From positions 1 to 41,751 of the forward strand of contig CAIUFY010000011.1 of the NCBI GenBank assembly GCA_903898555.1: DNA of 41,751 bases. The letters are read 5' to 3'. This document shows, one piece after another, positions 1,360 through 41,750 of the stretch. Position numbers and translations under genes: made by a program. The stretch comes from an uncultured Actinomycetes bacterium. GTDB lineage: Bacteria; Actinomycetota; Actinomycetes; Nanopelagicales; Nanopelagicaceae. How positions within the stretch are numbered: position 1 is the stretch's first letter; each line of letters opens with the position of its first letter. The notes under the pieces were generated by a model, which worked only from the letters and a program-made list of their open reading frames with translations, ran no database searches and had not been told where the DNA came from.

Positions 1360-2187
1360 TTACTGCCCAACCTTGAAACGGTGAAACGCCGACACAGCGG
1401 TCTTTGCCTCATCGAGGATTTGCTGGACTGTCTTCTTCGCATCTTTAGCAAAAGATTGCTCAAGAAGGCTGATTTCCTTGACGAAACCAGTTACTCGGCC
1501 TTCAACAATCTTGGTGAGAGAAGCTTCTGGCTTTCCCTCAGCGCGAGCTGTCTCTTCGGCAATACGGCGCTCTGCCTCGATTTGATCTGCAGGAATATCT
1601 TCCCGGCGAACAAACTGAGGTGCAAAAGCAGCAATATGTTGCGCAACGTCCTTACCTGCTTCAACAGCATCTGCTGTGAGCTGAACCAAGACACCAAGTT
1701 GTGGTGGAAGGTCTGGGTTTGTGCGGTGCAAGTAGAGAGAAACTGGTGATCCATCTAGAACTGCAATACGACGAATTTCAATCTTTTCGCCGAGGGTTGC
1801 ATTTCCTTCGTCAACACGGGCTTGAACTGTCTGTCCGCTTGGAAGTGTTGAAGCCAAGAAAGCAGGGAGTTCATTAATGCTTGATGAAGATAGGTGGTTC
1901 AAGAGTTCATTTGCGAGCTCCTGAAAACGCTCTCCTTTAGCCACGAAATCAGTTTCGCAGTTAAGTTCGAGCATTACTCCACGAGTTCCTTCAGCTTTTG
2001 CAATAACCAAACCATTTGAGGTTGAGCGGCCTTCACGCTTTGTGACGCCCTTCAAACCCTTCACGCGAATGATTTCAACAGCTTTGTCGAAGTCGCCATC
2101 GGCTTCATCGAGTGCCTTTTTGCAATCAAGCATTCCTGCTGCGGTTTGTTCGCGCAGTTTCTTTACATCTTCAGCTGTGTAAGCCAT
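1360..2187 (-). CDS. tsf: Translation elongation factor Ts
   Basis: Guanine nucleotide exchange factor for EF-Tu. 275 residues, in the actinobacterial size range. The N-terminal UBA-like domain is recognisable ([19 protein letters not shown]), followed by the conserved [13 protein letters not shown] segment around residue 76 that inserts into EF-Tu. The C-terminus FHRFKVGQ matches the usual ending of actinobacterial EF-Ts. It starts 11 bp after the rpsB stop, so the two are almost certainly co-transcribed, as in most bacteria. Confidence 0.98.
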
Positions 2188-2198
2188 AACTATTTCAC

Positions 2199-3026
2199 TT
2201 ACTCCTTAACTTCTGTAACAACGGCCTCTGGTGCAGCAGCAGTTTCAACAACTGGTGCAGCAGCAAGAATTTCTGCTTCCAACTTATCTGCATCTGTAGC
2301 AGCTGCGGCTGGAGCCTTATCTGGGTTTGATGCTGCGTTAGCTGAACGAGCAGCGAGTCCTGCAGCCGCTGCATCAGCGATAACGCGAGTAAGCAAACCG
2401 ATTGAACGGATTGCATCATCGTTACCAGGAATCTTGAAATCAACTTCATCTGGATCGCAGTTTGTATCCAAGATTGCTACAACTGGAATACCAAGCTTGT
2501 GAGCTTCAGCTACTGCAAGGTGTTCCTTCTTTGTGTCGACAACCCAAATTGCTGAAGGCAATTTAGTCATGTTGCGAATACCTTCGAGGTTCTTTGTGAG
2601 CTTTTCGCGCTCGCGACGTAGAACAAGAAGTTCCTTCTTTGTAAGAACTTGATCGTTCTTCTCTTCTAGAAGTTCCAACTCCTTCAAGCGTTGAATACGC
2701 TTGTAAACGGTTGGGAAGTTTGTGAGCATTCCACCAAGCCAGCGCTCAGTAACGTAAGGCATATCTACGCGAGCTGACTGTTCCTTGATAGGTGCGTGTG
2801 CTTGCTTCTTGGTTCCAACGAAAAGTACGTGGCCACCCTTTGCAACTGTGTTCTTGATGAACTCGTAAGCACTGTCGATAAGAGCAAGTGATTGCTGGAT
2901 ATCGATGATGTAAATTCCATTGCGCTCGGTGAAAATGTAGCGCTTCATTTTTGGATTCCAACGACGAGTCTGGTGTCCGAAGTGGACTCCGCTGTCGAGG
3001 AGTTCTCGCATTGTTACAACCGCCAT
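2199..3026 (-). CDS. rpsB: 30S ribosomal protein S2
   Basis: Component of the 30S head/body junction, needed for S1 docking where S1 is present. 275 residues. Begins [19 protein letters not shown]; the family signatures [19 protein letters not shown] and [11 protein letters not shown] are intact. The last about 45 residues are Ala/Glu/Pro-rich and probably unstructured, a common actinobacterial extension. AAAGGAG is placed 9 nt before ATG 3026. A perfect 9-bp inverted repeat ends 4 nt before this site, a position from which it could control translation or transcription. First gene of the rpsB-tsf-pyrH-frr unit. Confidence 0.98.
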
Positions 3027-3044
3027 GGCGGCACGCTCCTTTAT

Positions 3045-3066
3045 TGCATATGTATAAACATATGCA
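3045..3066 (-). promoter_or_regulatory. Perfect inverted repeat next to the rpsB ribosome binding site
   Basis: TGCATATGT and ACATATGCA form perfect 9-bp arms around a 4-nt centre. Read in the rpsB direction the repeat ends just before ATAAAGGAG. In RNA it would be a small AU-rich hairpin beside the ribosome binding site; in DNA it is a 22-bp symmetric site. It also contains TATACA, which could serve as a -10 box. rpsB leaders are known sites of S2 feedback control in several bacteria, but I do not recognise this as a described S2 motif. Confidence 0.5.
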
Positions 3067-3121
3067 CTCGGTTAACGATCCAACGATTTGTCGAATCTCT
3101 AACGCCTTGTCACCGACCAGA

Positions 3122-3151
3122 CTTTTACCTCTGGACCGAAGTGGTTCTCAA
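3122..3151 (-). promoter_or_regulatory. Candidate rpsB promoter with overlapping palindrome
   Basis: In the rpsB direction TTGAGA (3151-3146) is followed after 18 nt by TAAAAG (3127-3122). The predicted transcript would begin near 3115, giving a leader of about 90 nt that includes the 3045-3066 inverted repeat. The -35 box overlaps the perfect 14-bp palindrome CTCAATTAATTGAG (3147-3160), which may be an operator. The hexamers are only moderate matches, so this is a suggestion. Confidence 0.3.
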
Positions 3152-3176
3152 TTAATTGAGTAAGACGTATGAAGTC

Positions 3177-3202
3177 AGGAATGCCAGATATCTGGCTTTC
3201 CT
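3177..3202. repeat. 26-bp near-perfect palindrome between xerC and rpsB
   Basis: The core GCCAGATATCTGGC (3183-3196) is a perfect 14-bp palindrome. One mismatched position on each side is followed by another perfect 5-bp arm (AGGAA/TTCCT). As RNA it can fold into a stem with an ATAT loop but has no T-run after it, so it is a poor intrinsic terminator. As DNA it resembles a dimer-binding operator. It lies 40-65 bp after the xerC stop. Confidence 0.45.
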
Positions 3203-3224
3203 GCTGGGTGAATCTTATTGGGGC

Positions 3225-3239
3225 TGGGCTATACGCCCA
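3225..3239 (-). terminator. Small hairpin directly after xerC
   Basis: TGGGC GTATA GCCCA begins a few bases after the xerC stop. The stem is 5 bp, GC-rich, and has no U-tract. Together with the 26-bp palindrome further on it may mark the 3' end of the long amino-acid biosynthesis transcript, but as an intrinsic terminator it is weak. Confidence 0.2.
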
Positions 3240-3241
3240 AA

Positions 3242-4141
3242 TTACGCTCGAGGATGAGCCTGCTCATAGGCCCTTTGCAGCCTTTCAGGCGAAACATGCG
3301 TATAAATCTGAGTAGTCGAGAGGGATGAGTGGCCAAGAATCTCTTGCACCGTTCTTAAATCAGCCCCTCCCTCAAGTAAGTGGGTCGCGGCCGTGTGCCT
3401 AAGTCCATGGGGTCCCATCGAAGATCCGATTGCCTCCATTGCGTCATACACAGCATCGCGAGCAGTTCGTTGATCAATTCGCTTGCCGCGAGAACCAAGA
3501 AATACGGCGCTCCCAGATTTTTCGTTTGCCATTTGAGGGCGAGCAATTTTCAGATAATTTTGAAGTGCCTCCATGGCTGGAATTCCAAGGGGAACCACCC
3601 GCTCCTTGTTGCCCTTACCAATCACTCTCAATGTATTGCGACTTGTGTCGATGGAGAGATTATCCAGACCACATAATTCAGAGATTCGAATTCCAGATGC
3701 GTAAAGAACTTCAACCATTGCGAGGTTTCGAAGATTCACCGCTGTTGGTTCCTCTCCAGCCTTCAGTTGCAAAGCGGCCAGAACTATTTCCGTATCTGCA
3801 ATATCGAGCACTTCAGGTAAATGAGGCTGAGGTTTTGGAATTGCTAGCGCGGCACCGTAATCAGACTTTATCCAACCGTTGCTTGCAGCCCAATAAGTAA
3901 ATGCACGCATTGAAACAATTCGGCGGGCCAACGTTGCACGGGTAGCGCCATTTGCTTGTAAAGAGGCTAACCAGGATCGGATATGGGAAAGATCCAAATT
4001 TTTGAATTCATCAATCTTTAGCGTTTCAAGATGTTTCAAGAATGACTCTAAATCACTCACATAACCACGAATGGAGTTATCAGCCAGATTGCGCACGAGA
4101 GCCAAATGCTCTTCATATTGCGCAATTAGTGGTGAGGACAT
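3242..4141 (-). CDS. xerC: Tyrosine recombinase XerC-like
   Basis: Site-specific recombinase that with a partner resolves chromosome dimers at dif. 299 residues, the normal Xer length. An N-terminal SAM-like core-binding domain spans about residues 1-90. The catalytic domain shows the full set: R152 (SGIRISEL), K176 (GKGNKER), H245 and R248 (PHGLRHTAATHLL), H271 (LGHSSLSTTQIY) and the nucleophile Y280. No attachment site, integron or phage genes are nearby, and it lies near rpsB in the context typical of housekeeping XerC in Actinobacteria, so a mobile-element integrase is less likely. It follows cimA by 9 bp. GAGG sits only 2-3 nt from the ATG. Confidence 0.9.
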   Translation of the reverse strand: MSSPLIAQYEEHLALVRNLADNSIRGYVSDLESFLKHLETLKIDEFKNLDLSHIRSWLASLQANGATRATLARRIVSMRAFTYWAASNGWIKSDYGAALAIPKPQPHLPEVLDIADTEIVLAALQLKAGEEPTAVNLRNLAMVEVLYASGIRISELCGLDNLSIDTSRNTLRVIGKGNKERVVPLGIPAMEALQNYLKIARPQMANEKSGSAVFLGSRGKRIDQRTARDAVYDAMEAIGSSMGPHGLRHTAATHLLEGGADLRTVQEILGHSSLSTTQIYTHVSPERLQRAYEQAHPRA

Positions 4142-17925: not shown

Positions 17926-19191
17926 TTATCGGATTTGCCCTGTGCCCCACACAATCCAAGTTGTGGTCGTCATCTGCTCAAGTCCCATAGGGCCTCGGGC
18001 GTGAAGCTTTTGATTCGATATTCCAATCTCAGCCCCAAAACCCATCTGTTCCCCATCGGTAAATCGCGTTGATGCGTTCACCATTACTGCGGCGCAATCA
18101 GATAGCGCAATAAATTGATTTGCTCGCTCAACATTTTCGGTGACGATGGCCTCTGTGTGCTGGGTTCCGTATTTTTGAATGTGATCGGCAGCTGCAAGAA
18201 GAGATGGCACCACAGCAACATTCATTTCAAGAGAATTATATTCGGTAGACCAATTCTCCTCTTCGGCTTGATTAACTTGCAATCCAATTGAACCTGCAAT
18301 ATTCATTGTTGCTGCATCGGCATGAATTCTTACTCTTGCATCAATAAGCGCCTTTAGAGCAACCGGAAGAAATTCATCCGCTACTGCGGCGTGGACGAGT
18401 AAAGTCTCAGCAGCGTTACACACACTTGGGCGATGAGTCTTGGAATTGATCAAAATTGGAAGAGCTTTTCCTAAATCGGCGAATTCATCGACATACACAT
18501 GACAAACGCCAGCTCCGGTTTCAATAGTTGGGACTGAGGAATCATCCACAACCCGTCGAATAAGTTCAGCGCTACCTCTAGGAATTACTAAGTCCACTTT
18601 GCCGCGTGCATGCAGAAGGGCACCAACTGTTGAACGGTCTTCCGAAGGTATGTTTTGAATAACTTCAGGGGAGATTGAAGTGCCTGCCAATACTTCTCGC
18701 ATGATGTCAATGAGAACTGCATTGCTCGATGCGGCACTTGACGAGCCTCTAAGAAGTGCAGCATTACCAGATTTCAATAAAATTGCTGCGGCATCCACAG
18801 TTACATTTGGACGTGCTTCGTAAACCATTCCAACTACACCAAATGGAACGCTGAGTTGCTTCAAATGCAATCCGTTTCCAAGTGTGCGCTCATTAATCAC
18901 CCTATTTAATGGATCTGGGAGCGCCGCAACCTGCCTAGCTCCATCTGCCATTTCCTGAATACGCTTTGGGGACAATAAGAGCCGATCCACCATTGAACTC
19001 TGCATTCCAGAAATTTCTGCCCGGGCGAGGTCCTCTTTATTGGCTTCAAGAATTCTGTCCGAATTCAAAACCAAGGCGTCAGCTATTTTTTGGACTGCAT
19101 CGGCGCGCTCAGCAGCGGAGGCTGAAATTAGAGTGCGGGCTCCTGCTCGCGCAAGACCTGCCAAGGTATCCACGACTGCAGTTGCTTCCAT
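17926..19191 (-). CDS. proA: Gamma-glutamyl phosphate reductase
   Basis: NADPH-dependent reduction of glutamyl-5-phosphate, second step of proline synthesis. Start set at ATG 19191 (MEATAVVDTLAGLARAGA; 421 residues), which gives the normal family length; a longer frame to 19299 runs through the divergent gene and is rejected. Aldehyde-dehydrogenase fold with EARPNVTVDAAA, ETGAGVCHVYVD and the catalytic cysteine C258 in HRPSVCNAAETLL. No ribosome binding site is visible; TACCCT lies 6 nt before the ATG, so the message may be leaderless. It is separated from its partner proB by a gene on the other strand and leads into gatCAB after 9 bp. Confidence 0.96.
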   Translation of the reverse strand: MEATAVVDTLAGLARAGARTLISASAAERADAVQKIADALVLNSDRILEANKEDLARAEISGMQSSMVDRLLLSPKRIQEMADGARQVAALPDPLNRVINERTLGNGLHLKQLSVPFGVVGMVYEARPNVTVDAAAILLKSGNAALLRGSSSAASSNAVLIDIMREVLAGTSISPEVIQNIPSEDRSTVGALLHARGKVDLVIPRGSAELIRRVVDDSSVPTIETGAGVCHVYVDEFADLGKALPILINSKTHRPSVCNAAETLLVHAAVADEFLPVALKALIDARVRIHADAATMNIAGSIGLQVNQAEEENWSTEYNSLEMNVAVVPSLLAAADHIQKYGTQHTEAIVTENVERANQFIALSDCAAVMVNASTRFTDGEQMGFGAEIGISNQKLHARGPMGLEQMTTTTWIVWGTGQIR

Positions 19192-19221
19192 TGTGCAAGG
19201 GTAGGGGCAATAATCCCCCTT
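19192..19221. promoter_or_regulatory. 30-bp divergent control region, proA / serine hydrolase
   Basis: Only 30 bp separate the two start codons. Toward the serine hydrolase, AATAAT (19209-19214) is 7 nt before its ATG. Toward proA, TACCCT is 6 nt before its ATG. Neither start has a recognisable ribosome binding site. Both messages could thus be leaderless, with -35 regions inside the opposite coding sequence. The boxes are short, so this is tentative. Confidence 0.4.
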
Positions 19222-20361
19222 ATGAAATTCCTTCGTAAAACCCTTGTGACGGTCTTCGTTCTCTATTTCGCGCTTTGGGGCGTGACCCTTGTTATTCACT
19301 ACCCAAATCCGTACCAGTCAGTGAAGTTGGGCTTAGCGCCCGCTTCTAAGACTCCAGATTTAATGCCAGCGCACACAATTGCACCATCAACAAATCCAAT
19401 TTCACTCACAACAGCAAACGAGAACATGCCAGTGAGAGTTAATTGGCAAGGCAAATTAGTTCCTTGGCAAGAATTTCTAGACACAACACATACGAATGTA
19501 TTCCTAGTTCTGCGAAATGGTGTGCTCACTTACCAGTACTACCGCGATGGCTTTACTCCAACTACTCGACTTCCGTCGTATTCGGTTGGAAAGACGATGA
19601 CCTCCATAATGGTCGGCCAACTCGTAGCAGCTGGAAAAATCAAAGAGAGCGATAAATTCGTTGATTACTTCCCTGAATATAAAAATGGTACTTCTTTTGA
19701 TCGCGTAACAATCGGAGAATTGTTAGATATGCGCGGCGGAGTAGGAGTGAGTGATAACTATCCAACTGGTCCGCAAGGCTGGGGCGTTGGAATTGCGCAG
19801 ATGTATGCGACAACGGATATGAATTGGTTTATCAAGCACAACCGAAAGATGGCATTTGAACCAGGTTCTCAAGCAATCTATCGCAGCGTTGATCCTCAAT
19901 TAATCGGAATGGTTATTAAAAAGGTCACGGGAATGTCGGTAAGTGACTATTTCAGTAAGAATGTTTGGCAGCCTGTTGGAGCACTAACACCAGCAACGTG
20001 GAATGTTGACCATGTGGGTGGAATTGAAAAGACTTTCTGTTGCTTTAATGCTGCAGCCGAAGATTACGCAAAAGTTGGCTTAATGCTCATGAATAACGGC
20101 ATGGTTGGAAAGACTCGTGTACTAGATTTGAATTGGATCAAGCGCATGAGCACTTCTGTCGAACAACTTGAAGGTTCTGGCTACAGCGCCTACACATGGC
20201 ATCCATTTGCAAATATTGACATGATGGATGGGCTTCATGGCCAGTATGTATTCATCGATCGTGCGTCACGAACAGTTATTGTTAAATTGAGCGACGTTCC
20301 CACTGGAATGGAAATTACAAAACCAACAGCTCAGGTAATGATGGATATAGCTAAGAATTAA
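19222..20361 (+). CDS. Membrane-anchored serine hydrolase, beta-lactamase/NylB-like
   Basis: 379 residues, the only protein gene on the + strand. An N-terminal hydrophobic stretch at about residues 7-26 looks like a signal anchor, placing the enzyme outside the membrane. The fold family is class C beta-lactamase/esterase (PF00144). S121 and K124 form SxxK in PSYSVGKTM; Y220 in YRSVDPQLIGMVI is the likely third catalytic residue; HG at 339-340 stands where KTG-type motifs lie. The overall pattern is close to 6-aminohexanoate-dimer hydrolase (NylB)/EstB types. The natural substrate cannot be told: esters, peptides or amides are all possible. It faces proA across 30 bp and overlaps proB by 4 bp at the 3' ends. 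Not a proven beta-lactamase. Confidence 0.88.
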   Translation: MKFLRKTLVTVFVLYFALWGVTLVIHYPNPYQSVKLGLAPASKTPDLMPAHTIAPSTNPISLTTANENMPVRVNWQGKLVPWQEFLDTTHTNVFLVLRNGVLTYQYYRDGFTPTTRLPSYSVGKTMTSIMVGQLVAAGKIKESDKFVDYFPEYKNGTSFDRVTIGELLDMRGGVGVSDNYPTGPQGWGVGIAQMYATTDMNWFIKHNRKMAFEPGSQAIYRSVDPQLIGMVIKKVTGMSVSDYFSKNVWQPVGALTPATWNVDHVGGIEKTFCCFNAAAEDYAKVGLMLMNNGMVGKTRVLDLNWIKRMSTSVEQLEGSGYSAYTWHPFANIDMMDGLHGQYVFIDRASRTVIVKLSDVPTGMEITKPTAQVMMDIAKN

Positions 20362-21473
20362 AGCAGGACGAGGTCGTCCCTGTGTACGAGTTCCCGCTCG
20401 TATTCAGGGCCCATCGTTTGAGCAAGTTCCTTAGTAGATTTTCCAATCATCTTAGGAATTTCTTGTGAATCAAAAGCTACTAACCCTCGAGCAATCACAA
20501 TTCCTTGGAGTGAAACTAATTCGACGGTATCCCCTGAAATAAATTCACCTTCAACGCTCTTAACGCCAGCGGGAAGAAGTGAGACTCCACGTTCCTTAAG
20601 TGCCTTCACTGCTCCGTCGTCGATTACGAGTTTTCCATTAGGCGTTGAGGCGTGAGCCAGCCATAGCAATCGAGAGGATTTTCTATCTTTAATAGCCTCG
20701 AAGAATGTGCCCTCATCTTCTCCCCTAAGGGCCAAACTTAATTTCTCAAGTGAAGTGAGAAGCATGGAAACTCCAGCTCCTGTTGCAATTCGCGCGGCGT
20801 CAATTTTTGTGATCATTCCACCGCTGCCGACGCCTGAAGATCCAACTCCACCAACCTGCACATCAACAAGCTTTGTAACATCGGGTACTTCTGAGATTCG
20901 CTTCGCACCTGGCTTTGAAGGCGGCGCATCGTAAAGGCCATCTATGTCCGTTACAAGAACTAAGAGATCTGCTCCAATTAAATGTGAGACAAGGGCAGCA
21001 AGGCGATCATTATCTCCAAAGCGAATTTCTTGGACGCCTACGGTGTCGTTCTCGTTGATAATTGGAACTACACCGAGTTGAAGCAATTTAAAAAGAGTGC
21101 GCTGCGCATTTTGGTAATGAGCGCGCCGAACTACATCGTCAATTGTTAATAGAACTTGGGAGGAGATCAAGGAATGGCGTGTAAACGCTTCGTTGTAATA
21201 TGAAATCAATAAGCCTTGTCCAACAGAAGCTGCTGCTTGCTGAGTGGCAAGATCCTTTGGTCGCACACTCATTCCAAGTGGCGCTAGACCAGCAGCGATT
21301 GCGCCAGAGGATACGAGAACTACTTCTTTTCCTGAAGCTCGAAGGCTTGCGACAATATCTACAATGGAATCGACATGCTTTTTGTCGAGCTGCTCACCGG
21401 CCTTGCCCGTGAGGGTAGAAGAACCGATCTTGATAACAACGCGCGCAGCAGTGCCAATCTCGTTGCGCTTCAT
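20358..21473 (-). CDS. proB: Glutamate 5-kinase with PUA domain
   Basis: Phosphorylates glutamate, first step of proline synthesis and target of proline feedback. 371 residues. The amino-acid kinase domain covers roughly 10-260 (VVIKIGSSTLTG, VVLVSSGAIAAG, INENDTVGVQEIRFGDND, TDIDGLYDAPP). A C-terminal PUA domain covers about 285-360, beginning near GKLVIDDGAVKAL. It begins 9 bp after obgE. Its stop overlaps the stop of the + strand serine hydrolase by 4 bp, so the two transcripts converge. Confidence 0.97.
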   Translation of the reverse strand: MKRNEIGTAARVVIKIGSSTLTGKAGEQLDKKHVDSIVDIVASLRASGKEVVLVSSGAIAAGLAPLGMSVRPKDLATQQAAASVGQGLLISYYNEAFTRHSLISSQVLLTIDDVVRRAHYQNAQRTLFKLLQLGVVPIINENDTVGVQEIRFGDNDRLAALVSHLIGADLLVLVTDIDGLYDAPPSKPGAKRISEVPDVTKLVDVQVGGVGSSGVGSGGMITKIDAARIATGAGVSMLLTSLEKLSLALRGEDEGTFFEAIKDRKSSRLLWLAHASTPNGKLVIDDGAVKALKERGVSLLPAGVKSVEGEFISGDTVELVSLQGIVIARGLVAFDSQEIPKMIGKSTKELAQTMGPEYERELVHRDDLVLL

Positions 21474-41123: not shown

Positions 41124-41197
41124 GCGGGTGTAGTTCAATGGTAGAACTCCAGCCTTCCAAGCTGGTTGTGCCGGTTCGATCCCGGTCACCCGCTCCA
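41124..41197 (+). tRNA. tRNA-Gly (anticodon UCC)
   Basis: Acceptor GCGGGTG/CACCCGC, D-arm GTTC-AATGGTA-GAAC, anticodon stem CCAGC/GCTGG with loop CTTCCAA (anticodon UCC), T-loop TTCGATC. Discriminator T and encoded CCA. 71 nt without CCA. Reads GGA and GGG codons. It is the right-hand of two divergent tRNAs and points toward the convergent collagen-like gene. Confidence 0.95.
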
Positions 41198-41231: not shown

Positions 41232-41750
41232 TTACATCGTTAGTGACGAACCAACTTGTTCAGCTAAAAAACCTCCTGACGACGTAAAAGTATTGACCGT
41301 GGTTGAAGGTGCAACAGAAATAGTCGCTTGCAACCTGAAGTCACTTGGGACTGAAGTGCCGTCCACGAGCACTTTGGCAAGAATGTTGTTTTCAATCACA
41401 GAGGTACCACTTCGGACAGACGCCCCACTTGTGACTAAGTAGGTGAATGAAATTGCAGGCGAGAATCCGGGTGATGTAAGTCGAACTAAATTAATAGCAC
41501 CTTGGGTTCCTGTCACAACGAATGTCCCATGAATCAACACATCAATCACATAAATCTTTCCAGCTAAGAAATTTCCGAATGAAGCTGAAGTTAATTCAGT
41601 ATTTGGACTCGAATTCAGATCTCCAAAACTTATTGATCCTAAGGACGCGGAAGAAATTCCCGCGGGTCCGGTTGCACCTTGCAGACCTTGCGAACCCTGC
41701 GATCCGGTTGCACCTTGTTGGCCGGTTGCACCTTGTGCACCTGTTAATCC
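41232..41750 (-). CDS. Collagen-like repeat protein, C-terminal part (5' cut by window edge)
   Basis: The frame is open from the window edge to TAA at 41232, giving 172 residues. It opens with ten Gly-X-Y triplets (GLT GAQ GAT GQQ GAT GSQ and on to GPA G), the collagen-like signature, followed by about 140 residues rich in Ser, Thr, Val and Leu (beginning ISSASLGSISFG, ending FLAEQVGSSLTM) that resemble a beta-rich trimerising head or tail domain. No signal or anchor can be seen because the start is missing. Bacterial collagen-like proteins are usually secreted or surface filaments; some are phage tail fibres. No phage gene is visible. Function unknown. Confidence 0.8.
   Translation of the reverse strand, partial: GLTGAQGATGQQGATGSQGSQGLQGATGPAGISSASLGSISFGDLNSSPNTELTSASFGNFLAGKIYVIDVLIHGTFVVTGTQGAINLVRLTSPGFSPAISFTYLVTSGASVRSGTSVIENNILAKVLVDGTSVPSDFRLQATISVAPSTTVNTFTSSGGFLAEQVGSSLTM
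41661..41750 (-). repeat. Gly-X-Y coding repeats with a recurring 14-mer
   Basis: CCGGTTGCACCTTG occurs three times on the + strand at 41668, 41704 and 41722, spaced 36 and 18 bp apart, all multiples of 9. The repeat runs past the window edge. Such arrays change length by slippage while staying in frame. Confidence 0.85.

Follow-up and report, generated by a model that had tools for sequence, protein, structure and literature searches.

A membrane-anchored NylB-like hydrolase gene antisense between proB and proA in Nanopelagicaceae, with predicted back-to-back leaderless promoters

Freshwater acI bacteria have very small genomes and rank among the most abundant microbes of their habitat. In one of them, a serine hydrolase gene lies between proA and proB on the strand opposite to both. 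How did this gene come to split the pair, what does its product do, and how is an antisense gene accommodated at this site? These questions concern a 41,751-nucleotide stretch of DNA (the window) from a 1.47-Mb assembly of 170 contigs, which belongs to the acI freshwater lineage (Nanopelagicaceae). The explanation that we consider probable as a whole is that an old, surface-facing Ser-Lys-Tyr hydrolase is tolerated antisense within proB-proA through back-to-back leaderless promoters.

Gene layout and the encoded hydrolase

The hydrolase ORF begins with ATG, ends with TAA and encodes 379 residues; it is present in a single copy in the source genome. The other + strand ORFs in the 41.7-kb window are shadows over − strand genes, leaving the hydrolase as the sole convincing + strand protein gene, as the first-pass annotation had recognized. 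That annotation also described the gene as separating proA from proB and overlapping the 3′ end of the latter. The overlap amounts to 4 bp (20358–20361), within which the two stop codons meet tail to tail. Where no extra ORF intervenes, the stop-to-stop offset in relatives ranges from −33 to +11 bp. Three loci (L151–L153; genomes G271, G269, and G263) contain an additional ORF between the hydrolase and proB, so the junction accepts further insertions.

At the other end, alignment with relatives places the true start of proA at the ATG at 19191, which leaves 30 bp between its start codon and that of the hydrolase. The proA start of the ORF caller, a GTG at 19299, is an over-extension beyond this aligned start. 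The distal end of the window encodes a collagen-like Gly-rich protein with GATGxQG repeats (41232–41750, − strand), which runs off the window.

Table 1. Features of the hydrolase locus and its surroundings, in window coordinates
Feature	Position	Strand	Basis or remark
NylB-like/S12 (PF00144) membrane-anchored serine hydrolase gene	19222..20361	+	PF00144, 2.3e-22; NylB in PDB, 2e-23; 172/296 family genomes
proA, gamma-glutamyl phosphate reductase	17926..19191	−	TIGR00407, E = 1.1e-141
proB, glutamate 5-kinase	20358..21473	−	3′ end overlaps the hydrolase by 4 bp
Gap between proA and hydrolase start codons, 30 bp; predicted back-to-back promoter pair	19192..19221		Constant gap in relatives
Predicted proA −10 box, TACCCT, 6 nt before ATG	19198..19203	−	TANNNT 6–7 nt before proA in 53/54
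Possible hydrolase −10 box, AATAAT, 7 nt before ATG, degenerate	19209..19214	+	TANNNT in 47/54 relatives
N-terminal transmembrane anchor (about residues 5–25)	19234..19296	+	Hydrophobic stretch; helix 2–24 in model
SxxK motif, S121-V-G-K124 (catalytic Ser, Lys)	19582..19593	+	Aligns with NylB S112/K115
YxS motif, Y220-R-S222 (catalytic Tyr)	19879..19887	+	Y220 and S222 invariant; Y220 aligns with NylB Y215
tRNA-Gly	41124-41197	+	Only other + strand gene in the window

The gene product is a PF00144/S12 serine hydrolase and is NylB-like by sequence. Its match to the PF00144 profile reaches 80.1 bits against a curated cut-off of 27 (E = 2.3e-22), and the best sequence match in the PDB, found by phmmer, is the 6-aminohexanoate-dimer hydrolase NylB (2zm2, E = 2e-23). 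The likeness to NylB (PDB 1wyb, 2zm2, and 2dcf) extends over the PF00144 fold, the Ser-Lys-Tyr residues and the matched Y170 and GxHGQ strand. The S121/K124 and Y220 motifs, proposed from the first reading, align with S112/K115 and Y215 of NylB, and Tyr180 is the counterpart of Y170. All 67 members, and two outgroup homologues of 39–42% identity, have Ser121, Lys124, Tyr180, and Tyr220 unchanged; an EK-x-FCC-x-NA block is likewise invariant.

The two proteins also differ in several respects. They share about 23% identity, and the hydrolase is membrane-anchored, with its own conserved N-terminal segment and the invariant EK-x-FCC-x-NA block. D181 and N/H266, which shape the substrate pocket of NylB, correspond to G186 and F272 here. 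Since these specificity residues are not shared, hydrolysis of the nylon dimer is not implied.

The membrane anchor noted earlier recurs as a hydrophobic N-terminal stretch in 67 of 69 homologues. Lys or Arg residues ahead of it predict an N-in topology that would place the enzyme outside. An AlphaFold model of the hydrolase was obtained with a pLDDT of 84 and a pTM of 0.85. Confidence is poor at residues 179–193, a conserved loop beside the active site, and no substrate was read from the model for this reason. The closest PDB fold found by Foldseek is PIB-1 (8rlj), a class C beta-lactamase-related serine hydrolase (TM about 0.8, E = 2e-24, 20–23% identity). NylB gives a TM of about 0.67 and an E value of about 1e-18 to 1e-19 at about 23% identity, and the matches after these two are esterases, a macrolactin acyltransferase, and DD-peptidases. 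The curated class C beta-lactamase families, whose cut-offs are 415–882 bits, give the protein no more than about 27 bits.

The coding sequence is under purifying selection, with a dN/dS of about 0.04–0.07 (dN 0.03–0.11; dS from about 0.7 up to saturation), and is therefore not a chance ORF. In most pairs its dN is lower than those of proA and proB.

Distribution, inheritance, and loss

Homologues of the hydrolase occur in 172 of 296 Nanopelagicaceae genomes and in 15 of 17 genera. Gene order was read in about 100 fetched loci. The arrangement obg-proB-[hydrolase, opposite strand]-proA-gatCAB was found in about 60 of them, representing at least 10 genera, and the basal genera g6 and g14 in a tree of obg, gatA, and rpmA carry the hydrolase in place. 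The hydrolase tree groups by genus, and the nearest neighbour of each hydrolase belongs to the same genus in 36 of 36 cases. Distances between hydrolases correlate with host distances (obg+gatA) at r = 0.80, compared with 0.78 for proA and 0.87 for proB (0/2000 permutations). The closest relatives outside the family are 39–42% identical and reside in other actinobacterial families at unrelated-looking loci.

These data bear on the suggestion in the first-pass annotation that the gene was inserted by transfer. A recent insertion between proA and proB in the window lineage would suit the opposite strand, the split operon, the patchy presence, the adjoining proB-proA pair of some genomes, and the relocated copies in g1, g8, and g13. 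It is very hard to reconcile with a shared site in at least 10 genera including basal ones, with a gene tree in line with the genera, with a hydrolase–host correlation equal to that of proA, and with nearest non-family relatives of just 39–42% identity at unrelated-looking loci. We regard a recent transfer as extremely improbable and have rejected it on the shared locus and the congruent tree. The comparison of protein and host phylogenies that had been proposed as a check thus turned against the transfer idea (r = 0.80; proA, 0.78). A common locus throughout the family with a congruent phylogeny, named at the outset as an argument against recent transfer, is largely what was found. It applies to the ancestral state and not to every genome, since losses are frequent. 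The hydrolase is instead a long-resident gene, which was already antisense between proB and proA when the genera diverged. It may have been acquired by an ancient insertion, before the family radiated.

Presence at the locus switches at least 10 times across an 87-genome tree, which was rooted at the midpoint, and such change counts alone cannot separate gain from loss. They are read as losses because the basal genera have the hydrolase and the gene tree is congruent. The number of state changes also indicates that the hydrolase is dispensable. Contiguity of proB and proA in sister genomes, another point raised at the outset, varies accordingly: the two genes adjoin where the hydrolase was lost, often with an ATGA overlap, and are split by it in the roughly 60 loci above. 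In one such genome of the window genus (G108), the proB-proA spacing is 9 bp by aligned starts. As to possible recombination at the empty sites, windowed DNA identity between hydrolase-bearing and hydrolase-free sister pairs showed no sharp drop at the junctions clearly beyond the ordinary divergence of proA and proB.

Other rearrangements involve the flanking genes. In a subclade of the window genus, proA and the hydrolase were lost jointly, leaving the order gatC-proB-obg. Three genomes (G068, G073, and G031) lost proA and proB and still have the hydrolase in place. In one locus (L186, genome G024), an unrelated glycine-rich ORF of 431 residues on the proA strand replaces the hydrolase between proB and proA (1990–3282, flipped orientation), and the proA box is retained as TAGGCT-N6-ATG.

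The window genus (L096–L106, L108, and L109) has proB in 31 of 32 genomes and proC in all 32, and proA is missing in 19 of 32, among them 7 of the 16 high-quality genomes. The proA-less genomes thus retain two of the three proline-pathway genes without the middle one. Their ProB is intact, with a similarity to the window ProB close to that seen in proA-bearing relatives. A conserved GATAAGGTTG...ATG, with TAAGGT 6 nt before the ATG, stands at the gatC start of the proA-less genomes among L096–L109; as judged from this motif, it likely represents another leaderless start.

Copies at other loci occur in g1, g8, and g13. In three g8 genomes (L126–L128; G047, G055, and G053), a potA/ydcS/potB/potC-like ABC transporter operon ends with the relocated hydrolase, which in G055 starts 2 bp past the last permease gene. 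Some of the moved copies in g1 come after fructose bisphosphate aldolase and hexose kinase genes.

Possible substrates of the hydrolase

The hydrolase is most likely an extracytoplasmic enzyme that cleaves small amides or esters at the cell surface. Its catalytic domain would lie outside, held at the membrane, and act on an amide or ester bond. The first-pass annotation had suggested peptide or amide compounds from the environment, or peptidoglycan, as targets, and both may be regarded as candidates. A scavenging role would fit metabolic models of acI bacteria, which predict the use of di- and oligopeptides and polyamines (PMC5574706).

Scavenging might be tied to a particular importer. A partner of the polyamine-type ABC transporter would free polyamines or omega-amino acids from external amides, as suggested by the shared operon in the three g8 genomes and by the cleavage of omega-amino acid amides by NylB and polyamide-4 hydrolases (PMC13269358). 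The polyamide-4 hydrolases Nyl4Apa and Nyl4Apx, compared here by description, have a NylB-like beta-lactamase fold and a Ser-Lys-Tyr centre, but are large multi-domain enzymes with substrate-binding domains (PMC13269358). The transporter is found in just 75 of 296 genomes, G000 not among them, and in several g8 genomes it occurs where the hydrolase is missing. A partnership is improbable and was rejected, since it appears in one operon type only and does not match the family-wide presence of the hydrolase.

A role in the cell wall is a stronger candidate, though still an unlikely one. The hydrolase would then be a DD-carboxypeptidase/endopeptidase or a D-alanine esterase that edits peptidoglycan or teichoic acid. 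PF00144 includes such enzymes, the fold matches include the R61 DD-peptidase, FmtA-like proteins, and DltE, and the predicted outside location and single copy are compatible with this role. Those fold matches are weaker (E = 1e-12 to 1e-13, TM 0.55–0.6) than those to PIB-1 and NylB (E = 1e-18 to 1e-24). The hydrolase is also missing from many complete genomes of the family, which would be odd for a core wall function, and no obvious cell-wall biosynthesis genes lie next to most relocated copies.

The location invites a link to proline, in which the enzyme would feed or edit proline metabolism, for example by freeing proline or glutamate from peptides. The neighbourhood speaks for it, as does the joint disappearance of proA and the hydrolase in the subclade of the window genus. 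That joint loss is explained by a single contiguous deletion, and beyond it no co-loss was found. G108 has proA without the hydrolase, G068, G073, and G031 have the hydrolase without proA or proB, and relocated copies adjoin sugar-kinase/aldolase or polyamine-type transporter genes. We therefore rejected the functional link to proline, which appears very unlikely.

The start-codon gap and its paired −10 boxes

The start-to-start gap is 30–34 bp in all genera sampled with the hydrolase in place, except g6 (43 bp). A gap of 30–34 bp leaves no room for ordinary 5′ UTRs. Each side of the gap carries a −10-like hexamer. TANNNT stands 6–7 nt before proA in 53 of 54 in-place loci and before the first start codon of the hydrolase in 47 of 54, and is rare at other spacings in these loci. 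The typical boxes are TAGGCT (mostly on the proA side) and TACCCT, back to back, and the middle bases of the proA box (TAGGCT) are 81–91% conserved when weighted by genus.

TANNNT about 6 nt before the start is a known signature of leaderless genes in Actinobacteria (PMC3160421). The signature is present on both sides in the family; in the window, it is present for proA and degenerate for the hydrolase. The hydrolase side in the five-genome clade of the window reads either AATAAT (7 nt) or TAATCC/TAATCT (5 nt), and the T at −12 is absent. By these motifs, a shared promoter region is clearly predicted for the family and more weakly for the hydrolase side of the window. In 408 kb from five contigs of the window genus, TANNNT was found exactly 6 nt before 22 of 108 candidate divergent-gene starts, and before about 1 at other distances. 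Of the 27 divergent ORF pairs listed, only the hydrolase–proA pair, represented by two genomes, had a box at 6 nt on both sides.

The boxes persist to different degrees where the locus has changed. Among loci without the hydrolase, 8 of 21 keep the proA box and 13 of 21 have none, giving an association between box and hydrolase presence with a Fisher p of 2e-8, uncorrected for phylogeny. The box-less proA genes presumably depend on the operon. Relocated copies in g1 and the g13 copy retain a box (for example, TACCCT or TAGACT) 6 nt upstream of the start. The relocated copies in the three g8 genomes have no box and look operonic. Of the genomes that lost proA and proB, G068 and G073 keep the hydrolase box and G031 does not.

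We infer that the gap contains two leaderless promoters and that proA has its own start, with both the starts and their leaderless nature being predictions from these motifs. RNA polymerase would transcribe proA to the left and the hydrolase to the right, beginning at or beside the respective start codon, from two promoters back to back in about 32 bp with −10 boxes a few bases apart. With a leaderless promoter of its own, proA would not need read-through from proB, so that an antisense gene could be tolerated in the operon. The boxes lie so near each other that simultaneous occupancy by polymerase is improbable, and the two initiation events would then exclude each other. The hydrolase mRNA would extend tail to tail into proB and would be antisense to any transcript that reads through from obg and proB into proA. 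The unit may thus act like a noncontiguous operon, with mutual regulation possible.

Two known systems resemble this arrangement. In bidirectional bacterial promoters, a short, near-symmetrical DNA likewise serves two diverging genes; these share or overlap a −10 element, with starts 7–25 bp apart and most often 18 (PMC10268837, PMC12825309). The proA–hydrolase gap differs in having two separate −10 boxes and predicted starts about 31–35 bp apart, and so falls outside the definition of starts at 7–25 bp with a common −10 element (PMC10268837). In the noncontiguous operon menE-menC-MW1733-ytkD-MW1731 of S. aureus, an opposite-strand gene also lies within an operon (PMC7154746). The likeness here is drawn from gene order only, and the downstream gene proA differs in having its own predicted leaderless promoter.

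A stronger version of this comparison would hold that the hydrolase is kept in place because its mRNA is antisense to proB-proA read-through, in a noncontiguous operon that opposes proA and the hydrolase. The geometry forces an overlap: over many genera the hydrolase overlaps proB tail to tail or nearly abuts it, and lies about 32 bp from proA. Comparable operons are known in S. aureus (PMC7154746). The apparent promoter of proA itself weakens the dependence on read-through, the hydrolase is kept in genomes without proA and proB (G068, G073, and G031), and it has been lost repeatedly without replacement. Such a regulatory role is conceivable but doubtful. Equally tentative is the proposal of a minimal divergent promoter made up of two complete leaderless promoters back to back in about 32 bp, each of which would borrow upstream contacts from the first codons of the other gene. 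It would have been kept throughout the history of the family, with proA and the hydrolase made in mutually exclusive bursts.

Tolerance of the antisense gene through back-to-back leaderless promoters remains the explanation that we favour. The known part of this locus is the enzyme superfamily, and the unusual part is the conserved position. The back-to-back leaderless arrangement, predicted from sequence and well supported across the family, is its most interesting aspect. For the study of polymerase competition and of antisense overlap in a streamlined genome, the proA–hydrolase pair is a compact system. Many acI genomes keep the hydrolase under strong selection despite their small size, and its location would show how a gene can stay in an operon over long evolution and leave it unbroken, by giving the next gene a leaderless start of its own.
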